Shown here: piece after piece, positions 25,131 to 26,979 of the stretch
How the letters are laid out: each line of letters begins with the position of its first letter
How positions within the stretch are numbered: position 1 is the first letter of the stretch
Assembly: GCA_030054195.1 (NCBI GenBank)
Contig: JASGCJ010000007.1
Coordinates: 1-48,462, forward strand
Source of the DNA: Minisyncoccota bacterium
GTDB lineage: Bacteria; Verrucomicrobiota; Verrucomicrobiia; Methylacidiphilales; Verrucolacustridaceae
Length of the DNA stretch: 48,462 bases
Reading direction: 5' to 3'
Translations under genes and position numbers: made by a program
The notes under the pieces: generated by a model
Seen by the model: only the letters and a program-made list of their open reading frames with translations
Database searches by the model: none
Told to the model about the DNA's origin: nothing

Positions 25131-25172
25131 AAAAAGAAGAGCGGGCCCCGGTTGTGGGACCCGCTCTCTTTT
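25131..25172. terminator. Bidirectional terminator
   Basis: AGAGCGGG (25138-25145) pairs with CCCGCTCT (25160-25167), extended by CCC/GGG inside. On the plus strand it is followed by CTTTT; on the minus strand by TTCTTTTT. It serves both the permease ending at 25123 and the small minus-strand gene ending at 25175. Confidence 0.8.
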
Positions 25173-25174
25173 CA

Positions 25175-25417
25175 TCAGGTGGTGTGGATGCCCTCCTCCT
25201 CAAGGTGGTTGAAGAGTGTGTTTCTGCGTTCTCGTGCTTCACGCAGGTTTCGGGTTTCGAGTGAAACTCGGACCCGACGTTTCGTGTAGTCCGCTTGGTG
25301 GACAGTGTAGTGAATCCACCAGGTGCCGTGGTTATTCCAGAGGTGATGATCCGGATTTTCCGAATCGATTTTGATGCTGAGGGTAGCCCAGGGGGCTTCA
25401 AGGGTTGCTGTGCTCAT
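25175..25417 (-). CDS. Small protein resembling an integrase arm-binding domain
   Basis: 80 residues from the ATG at 25417. The core GTWWIHYTVHQADYTKRRVR, followed by SLETRNLREARERR, looks like the three-stranded N-terminal arm-binding domain plus helix found at the start of tyrosine integrases (a small beta-sheet followed by a T-x-D/N-x-x-x-A helix). The catalytic part of an integrase is absent, and no remnant of it follows before the terminator. It may be a stand-alone DNA- or RNA-binding protein. AAAGGAG lies 10 bases upstream inside a hairpin loop. A longer frame to 25609 runs back through the structured leader and is not favoured. Confidence 0.6.
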   Translation of the reverse strand: MSTATLEAPWATLSIKIDSENPDHHLWNNHGTWWIHYTVHQADYTKRRVRVSLETRNLREARERRNTLFNHLEEEGIHTT

Positions 25418-25420
25418 GTT

Positions 25421-25446
25421 GATGCGTCTCCTTTGATTGACGCATC
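25421..25446 (-). promoter_or_regulatory. Hairpin presenting the ribosome-binding site
   Basis: On the minus strand GATGCGTC (25446-25439) is perfectly complementary to GACGCATC (25428-25421). The 10-base loop plus first stem base hold AAAGGAG, the likely ribosome-binding site of the 80-residue protein. An alternative hairpin CCC-GCATC-GGG (25456-25446) shares base 25446 and could compete with it. Confidence 0.5.
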
Positions 25447-25459
25447 CCGATGCGGGCAC

Positions 25460-25635
25460 AAAAAACCGCCGACACATTCCTGTGCGGGCGGTTGGCCTGC
25501 GGAGAACTTTGTTCGAGTCAGGATCTTCCTGTCTCGCACATCGGAAAAGGACCTTGGGTCTTTTTCCAGCCACCGTGGGTTTCTCCAGCCCCGGTTGGCG
25601 GACCTCCATCTTGCGACGGAAGTACTCGGAATGCT
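25460..25635 (-). ncRNA. Predicted structured RNA ending in an intrinsic terminator
   Basis: About 175 bases with no convincing protein. GGAGAA (in 25586-25576) can pair with UUCUCC (25506-25501), enclosing two long hairpins. One is GGAAAAAGACC/GGUCCUUUUCC (25567-25543, loop CAA, one A-C mismatch). The other is CGAG-A-CAGGA/UCCUG-A-CUCG (25536-25514, loop AGA). The 3' end is a terminator: AACCGCC/GGCGGUU (25493-25464) with an inner CACA/UGUG helix, a GGAA loop and a run of six U. It could be an independent small RNA or a riboswitch-like leader of the gene at 25417. I do not recognise it as 6S, SRP, tmRNA, RNase P or a known riboswitch. Confidence 0.5.
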
Positions 25636-25641
25636 GGGTTT

Positions 25642-25669
25642 AAATTAATCAATCCGCAGGGCAGGTCAA
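25642..25669 (-). promoter_or_regulatory. Putative promoter of the structured RNA
   Basis: On the minus strand TTGACC (25669-25664) is followed after 16 bases by TAATTT (25647-25642) in an AT-rich patch, close to sigma-70-type spacing. The predicted start falls near 25635, just before the structured region. Confidence 0.45.
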
Positions 25670-25705
25670 GCCCTTGGAGATTTTATGACACACGGGGTTC
25701 CGGGG

Positions 25706-26038
25706 TTATGCAGCTGGCTTTTTTGCGGTATCGAGCTCTTTGAGATATTTGTCGGGATTCTTGTTGAAGGATTTGACGCAACCTTTGCAGCAAAAACGGA
25801 TCAACCGGCCCTCGTACAAAGCATCCACTGTTTCGCCCATGCCTCCCAAGCCATCGTGTGAGACAACACAGGTCGTGAGAGGATAGCTTTTGGCCAGATC
25901 GGAAGCTTTTGCCTTATCTTCAGGAGTTTTGACGATCTGGGCAGATTTCTGTACAGGCGATTTGTTTTCTTCGGACTGGCCCAAGGTGAATGAGGCAAGG
26001 AGAAGGCAAGTGAGGAGGAGATAAGGTTTTAATTTCAT
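25706..26038 (-). CDS. Secreted TRASH/YHS-like metal-binding protein
   Basis: 110 residues. A signal peptide (about 1-20) precedes a lysine-rich spacer and a C-terminal domain of about 55 residues: YPLTTCVVSHDGLGGMG, then RLIRFCCKGCVKSFNKNPDKYL. The Cys...Cys-Cys-x-x-Cys arrangement and the F-x-x-x-P-x-x-Y-x ending match TRASH/YHS-type metal-binding domains, linked in other proteins to copper or other heavy metals. It is divergent from a cysteine-rich protein at 26116 and lies in a group of such proteins, so a role in metal capture or sensing outside the cytoplasm is likely but unproven. Confidence 0.75.
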   Translation of the reverse strand: MKLKPYLLLTCLLLASFTLGQSEENKSPVQKSAQIVKTPEDKAKASDLAKSYPLTTCVVSHDGLGGMGETVDALYEGRLIRFCCKGCVKSFNKNPDKYLKELDTAKKPAA

Positions 26039-26691: not shown

Positions 26692-26979
26692 TTAGTAGCG
26701 GCGGGTGGTGCCTTTGTCAGCGTAGGGGGAACTTTTCTTGCCACCCCGCTCCAAGGGAACAGATGACGATGATGAGCATTTTGATTTCTTGCTGGAGCAG
26801 CAAGAATCCTCTGATTTGCAGCACTCGTTGCACGCCTTGGTGCAGTTCGGTGTAGAGCAGCAGGGAGCATTGGTAGGGCAGCATTCGTTGCACTTTTTCT
26901 GGCAGGGTTCTGCTTGGACGAAGGATAGGAAGGGAAGAAGAAGGAGGACGGGTAGAGTCAGGTGATGGATGAATTTCAT
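26692..26979 (-). CDS. Secreted cysteine-rich protein
   Basis: 95 residues. A signal peptide (about 1-23, ...SFVQA-E) is followed by about 45 residues with fourteen cysteines in repeated patterns: CQKKCNECC, APCCSTPNC, KACNECC, DSCCSS and KSKC. The tail is Ser- and Lys-rich and ends without cysteine. Two half-repeats (KKCNECC and KACNECC) suggest internal duplication. No named family is recognised; a metal-binding or disulfide-knotted exported protein is likely. It converges with the 42-residue peptide across the terminator at 26641. Confidence 0.7.
   Translation of the reverse strand: MKFIHHLTLPVLLLLPFLSFVQAEPCQKKCNECCPTNAPCCSTPNCTKACNECCKSEDSCCSSKKSKCSSSSSVPLERGGKKSSPYADKGTTRRY

Follow-up and report, generated by a model that had tools for sequence, protein, structure and literature searches.

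The minus strand of the window, by which we mean the whole stretch of 48,462 nucleotides that was analysed, very likely carries a divergent SAM-I/IV riboswitch that represses, at high SAM, a one-gene transcript for an 80-residue DNA-binding-like protein. The riboswitch class is known. The RNA subfamily, its main target and the arrangement of two expression platforms in series have no description in the non-subscription literature that we searched, where we found no relevant paper on SAM riboswitches in Verrucomicrobia and none on DUF6538. The locus occupies positions 25,131 to 25,690. The original prediction had described it as a riboswitch or attenuator with a terminator and a masked ribosome-binding site, followed by a small protein that resembles an integrase arm-binding domain. 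This layout is supported and recurs across the phylum, while the assignment to no known class does not hold.

Layout of the locus and class of the aptamer

As read from the sequence, a structured RNA of about 175 nt begins near 25635 on the minus strand, at the transcription start predicted from a putative sigma-70 promoter at 25642..25669 (-35 TTGACC at 25669-25664, AT-rich -10-like TAATTT at 25647-25642). A candidate intrinsic terminator lies at 25460..25492, with the paired segments ACCGCC/GGCGGU and GCACA/UGUGU, a GGAA loop, U6 at 25465-25460 and one internal mismatch in its stem. Both elements had been part of the original prediction and both are readable: TTGAC(C/G) is kept within the window's genus, and similar terminators are present in relatives. 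However, at their own thresholds consensus scanners flagged no sigma-70 site and no terminator in the window leader, so that the evidence for the two elements is the reading itself and their conservation in relatives. The ribosome-site hairpin (25421..25450) is the perfect 8-bp hairpin that had been predicted, with its 5' arm at 25446-25439 and its 3' arm at 25428-25421; AAAGGAG spans the loop and the 3' arm and contains the Shine-Dalgarno sequence AAGGAG (25433-25428). The 80-aa ORF follows at 25175..25417. It resembles DUF6538 and integrase arm-type domains and has no catalytic domain. A hairpin with a T-run just 3' of the ORF (25131..25170), also read from the sequence, is the probable end of a one-gene transcript, and the next gene, of the LptF/LptG family, is convergent. 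A one-gene transcript is not the general rule among relatives, where a terminator was found within 90 nt after the ORF at only 16 of 94 loci. The upstream neighbours on the minus strand encode a small protein that looks secreted and has a sub-threshold YHS domain (25706-26038) and a very cysteine-rich 95-aa ORF (26692-26979). The hairpins, the terminator, the ribosome-site hairpin and the ORF are present where they had been placed, and folding is much stronger than in shuffled sequences (z = -4.4 for 25455-25645 and z = -5.0 for the leader as far as the ORF, with 0 of 200 dinucleotide shuffles as good in either case).

An Rfam scan at the gathering threshold returns nothing but a tRNA in the window. 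When Rfam is scanned by E-value, RF01725 (SAM-I/IV) matches at 25498-25639(-) with 30.5 bits (E 0.0034), below its gathering score of 41.1, which is a library cut-off and not a structural feature. This is the sole low-E-value match in the region; other sub-threshold matches (dinG, potC and asX2) have E-values above 4 and were taken as chance. The gathering score of RF01725 is reached by 4 of 20 relatives, and an extra copy in the window's genus (G008:C305) exceeds it with 42.7 bits. A new RNA class is ruled out by the SAM-I/IV match together with the above-threshold relatives.

The aptamer, from P1 to PK-2, spans 25501..25634; besides the sub-threshold RF01725 match its assignment draws on R1 (90.8 bits) and on covariation. 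It shows the order P1-P2-P3-P4-P5. The 5' strand of P1, GCAUU, is followed by J1/2 CC (together 25628..25634), and the 3' strand is GAUGU (25538..25542). P2 (25602..25623) is a single uninterrupted helix of 9 pairs with a GCAA loop, and it covaries in relatives. P3 (25569..25599) contains the ligand-pocket core GCCAACC/GGUGGC, whose columns are invariant in 35 relatives while the outer pairs covary. Covarying pairs are also found in P4 (25543..25567), and each of the four outer pairs of P5 (25514..25536) has two-sided changes in relatives. The P3 loop GGAGAA (25586-25581) is complementary to UUCUCC (25501..25506), and the two form PK-2. Instead of the two long hairpins first proposed, the aptamer has four, P2 to P5. 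SAM-I/IV RNAs are told from SAM-I and SAM-IV by an uninterrupted P2, the presence of P4, the absence of PK-1 and the presence of PK-2 (PMC6890682, PMC2864571), and the window RNA has all of these features, the absence of PK-1 being judged by the GNRA-type P2 loop. SAM-I (RF00162) and SAM-IV (RF00634) belong to the same clan and share the pocket core. The window RNA differs from SAM-I, in which P2 is split by a kink-turn and PK-2 is missing, and from SAM-IV, which has no P4 but a PK-1 (PMC6890682).

Every part of the crystallised SAM-I/IV RNA (4L81, PMC5393176) has a counterpart in the window, in the same order. P1-J1/2 reads GGAUCACGAG in the crystallised RNA and GCAUUCCGAG in the window, the P3 core GGCAACC...GGUGC against GCCAACC...GGUGGC, and the 3' side of P1 GGAUCC against CGAUGUGC; P5 comes next in both, and the region with the PK-2 strand that follows it is GCAACGAAGUCCGU in the former and GAACAAAGUUCUCC in the latter. 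In the alignment, the window has identical bases at A3, G8, A25, A26, G48 and U69, the SAM-proximity restraint positions of the crystallised RNA (PMC5393176). The flanking J1/2 bases differ, being CC in the window against AC in the crystallised RNA and AA in SAM-I. Thus, the window RNA shares with SAM-I/IV (RF01725; Weinberg 2010, PMC2864571; 4L81) P1, the uninterrupted P2, CAACC/GGUG in P3, P4, P5, PK-2 and the lack of PK-1. It departs from the class in several respects: most relatives, like the window copy, fall short of the gathering score, J1/2 is CC throughout the window's genus, a separate terminator and ribosome-site hairpin follow the aptamer, and the main target is a tiny DUF6538-like protein. 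In a sister genome (L004/L033, G014:C20) P1 carries a U to G change (GCAGUCC) in an otherwise intact leader, which scores 24.7 bits against RF01725.

The helices were analysed for covariation in an alignment of 35 diverse relatives, which are not independent samples. Paired cells amount to 86.8%, compared with 69.5% in shuffles, a percentage that is biased towards the structure since the structure was written from the same sequences. The changes on both sides of a pair do not depend on that bias alone, and neither does the slide control: 196 such cells were counted, against 72 in shuffles and 35-88 with the partners slid, and P2, P3, P4 and P5 all contribute. For PK-2, the duplex of each loop with its own tail has a mean of -10.17 kcal/mol, compared with -6.74 (sd 0.41) when the tails are permuted among the 35 relatives. 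Comparison of sequences in this way shows the SAM-I/IV fold, the conserved pocket and PK-2.

The switching strand and its downstream partners

Ten nucleotides at the 5' end of the aptamer, comprising the P1 5' strand and J1/2, are complementary to two downstream sites. This switching strand reads GCAUUCCG in the window and its genus and GCAUCAGG in most relatives. In most relatives CCUGAUGC appears twice, once in the loop of the terminator and once as the 5' arm of the hairpin immediately before the start codon; the corresponding sequences in the window's genus are AGGAAUGU for the terminator loop and CGGGAUGC for the ribosome-site arm. In the window leader, AGGAAUGU (25481-25474) can form 7 pairs with the P1/J1-2 strand, and UCGGGAUGC (25450-25442) can form 9. 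The strand pairs clearly better than dinucleotide shuffles do at both sites, the terminator part and the stretch immediately before the start codon. Four classes of strand can be distinguished, and in 73 of 78 leaders the best partner of the downstream region is the strand class of its own lineage (CCG 9/9, AGG 56/58, ACG 5/7, AAG 3/4), which, given the kinship within classes, corresponds to a handful of independent co-changes and not to 73. The 73 include 9 of 9 leaders in the window's genus, whose strand differs. On this comparison of lineages, the switching strand is seen to co-change with its downstream partners.

What the original prediction called a closing helix corresponds, in the ligand-free fold, to the P1 5' strand paired with the 5' arm of the hairpin at the ribosome site, the predicted ON state. 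This pairing is the ligand-free minimum computed for the window leader, at -96.9 kcal/mol. With P1, the terminator and the ribosome-site hairpin enforced, the leader reaches -91.6 kcal/mol, a gap for which ligand binding and PK-2 could pay. Secondary-structure energies ignore pseudoknots. Among the ligand-free minima of 68 leaders P1 is formed in none, and the strand pairs downstream in 44; a terminator-like hairpin with a T-run is present in 57 of the 68. When the terminator loop has just been transcribed, its pairing with the P1 strand is the minimum (-68.7 versus -60.5 with P1). Once complete, the terminator wins (-74.0 versus -69.4 for the P1-strand/loop pairing), and hence antitermination would be kinetic.

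We therefore predict an OFF switch at two levels, in which one strand of the ligand pocket acts on two distinct expression platforms, one after the other. Transcription would start at or just before P1. SAM would then bind the core made of P1, J1/2 and P3, and P1 and PK-2 would close. With P1 closed, GCAUUCC would be unavailable, so that the terminator (25492-25460) could fold and transcription would halt. Any read-through transcript would fold the ribosome-site hairpin (25446-25421), in which the Shine-Dalgarno sequence is masked. If SAM is missing, the five weak pairs of P1 would remain open; the strand would initially engage the terminator loop and so hinder termination, and would later pair with UCGGGAUGC in the 5' arm of the ribosome-site hairpin, allowing translation to start. 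Mimicry of P3 by the terminator segment GCCAACCG was considered as an antiterminator and rejected, since this segment is not conserved whereas the pairing of the P1 strand co-changes between lineages.

Two other modes of action have to be weighed against the OFF switch. SAM binding might free the ribosome site rather than mask it. Such an ON switch is scarcely credible: it has no direct support, P1 and the ribosome-releasing pairing share nucleotides, so that the ribosome-site hairpin is free to form once P1 has closed, and metH and metK, which follow related RNAs, are expected to be off at high SAM. The original prediction had also allowed for a stand-alone small RNA followed by a read-through gene. 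Listeria SreA/SreB are a precedent for a terminated small RNA acting in trans, and the locus has its own promoter, a strong terminator and an RNA of about 175 nt, which would suit such a main product with the ORF made only by occasional read-through. Nevertheless, we regard this as very improbable, because the loop of the terminator and the hairpin at the ribosome site both match the aptamer strand by complementarity and change along with it, because the RNA mostly stands directly before one protein family, and because several copies without a terminator keep the ribosome-site hairpin. The predicted two-level OFF switch resembles the dual transcription and translation platforms described earlier, in which the 3' arm of the terminator carries the ribosome site (Barrick and Breaker 2007, PMC2258182). 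In both cases one riboswitch attenuates transcription as well as translation; in contrast to those platforms, the window leader has two separate serial hairpins that share a single aptamer strand.

Distribution, target genes and the expected ligand

At the DNA level orthologues could be detected in 14 of 60 relatives, each of which belongs to the window's genus. Of 286 genomes of the class, 103 have a relative of the small protein. Relatives also occur in many named Verrucomicrobia, Opitutae and Spartobacteria and in some MAGs labelled Planctomycetota; in nearly all of those loci with sufficient upstream DNA the P3 signature precedes the gene. We built a new covariance model from 35 relatives and ran it on the 286 genomes, which yielded 76 RNA copies in 64 of them. 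Sixty of these copies, over 17 families, lie directly upstream of the small protein, and a sample of the phylum has the RNA in other classes too, again before the small protein in seven loci. The leader expected upstream of homologues is therefore found there, with helices and PK-2 that covary, and judged from these genomes the RNA-protein pair recurs across the phylum Verrucomicrobiota.

The association is not universal. In family f11, probably the Akkermansia family, none of 41 copies of the small protein has the riboswitch; in two f11 loci without it (L147 and one copy in L148) the small protein stands after an apparent ribosomal protein L28 gene. A phage origin was rejected, as a relative of the protein is on only 11 viral contigs and the RNA on only one. 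RNA and small protein occur together on the putative viral contig IMGVR_UViG_3300037781_000208 from IMG/VR (L217). A second type of SAM-I/IV copy exists in the genus, including the window's own genome (L209, G000:C87:31309-31448; also L210, L211 and L212), before unknown ORFs; these copies have no terminator, and their ribosome-site hairpin can take in the start codon. A Pfam-less family of proteins of about 210-270 aa lies beside riboswitches in two families (L212:765-1565 and L205:1026-1652, 43% identity), and in f63/f68, from other classes, the RNA precedes another Pfam-less protein of about 150-160 aa (L257, L258, L262, L264, L265). The window's genome also has a regular SAM-I riboswitch (L232, G000:C53:2975-3108; 73.3 bits) before a PLP-dependent enzyme resembling threonine synthase.

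Members of the RNA subfamily precede metH in three f14 genomes (L200-L202; S-methyl_trans and Pterin_bind in L201), metK in two f80 genomes of other classes (L261 and L263; three S-AdoMet_synt domains in L263) and a gene pair with a ThiS sulfur carrier (L198). This association with methionine genes holds for the subfamily and not for the window copy itself. Because of these placements and of the conserved pocket nucleotides, SAM is the expected ligand. The same fold and switching might serve another compound, for instance SAH or a different SAM-derived molecule, and the copies before the small protein would then be a variant class. The divergent J1/2 of the window's genus and the fact that most target genes are not methionine genes would be in line with this. 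We consider it unlikely, as the pocket core is invariant and the same subfamily stands before metH, metK and the ThiS gene, and we retain SAM as the expected ligand.

The small protein and the TATGACA box

DUF6538 (PF20172) is matched by 24 of 24 aligned members of the protein family (best 5e-5) and Arm-DNA-bind_3 (PF13356) by 4 of 24, with modest scores in both cases; the window protein itself reaches 20.9 bits against DUF6538, below the Pfam cut-off of 27. The family has 18 invariant positions, and an AF2 model (pLDDT 77) consists of strands followed by a helix; the fold of the integrase arm-type domain is a three-stranded sheet plus a helix. Compared with the PDB, the model gave no match at an E-value of 0.001 or better and the fold comparison nothing usable, and the same was true of a profile search of PDB sequences with the small protein. 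Profile matches link the family to DUF6538 and Arm-DNA-bind_3; unlike these, the small protein stands alone, with about 70-105 aa and no recombinase domain. We take it to be, most probably, a free-standing DNA-binding domain of the arm type, which would bind DNA and act at low SAM.

Upstream of the promoter, on the minus strand, lies the box TGTCATA (25684..25690; TATGACA on the opposite strand). Among 67 deduplicated relatives, 45 have the box, as TATGACA or TGTCATA, in the 160 nt that precede the aptamer, where shuffles average 1; it nearly always sits 51-66 nt before P1, both in the window and at the equivalent positions of L037-L166. The box was not found before metH and metK. It is missing in 16 of 18 RNA loci of genomes that lack the small protein (Fisher p 7e-6, uncorrected for relatedness); the two exceptions argue against a strict tie to the protein. 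The window's genome contains TTATGACAC[AG] at three sites, two of them at the two riboswitch promoters and the third inside a coding region. The box is a probable transcription factor site, and it is an attractive idea that the small protein binds it. Taken further, Verrucomicrobiota might possess a SAM-responsive regulon centred on a tiny stand-alone arm-type protein that binds the TATGACA box before its own riboswitch promoter and a few sister genes. Riboswitch and transcription factor would then be joined in a single feedback loop that responds to SAM starvation, with a single pocket strand operating first the terminator and then the ribosome-site hairpin. We put this forward tentatively and hold it to be possible rather than likely.

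The Rfam threshold misses most of this RNA subfamily. The leader offers a natural case of one aptamer strand driving two serial platforms, and its co-change in multiple lineages can guide the design of mutants. In numerous families of a large, little-studied phylum, a known riboswitch class is here tied to a conserved protein that has no assigned role. Its regulation gives the small protein a likely place in SAM and methionine biology, and in this way its function becomes testable.
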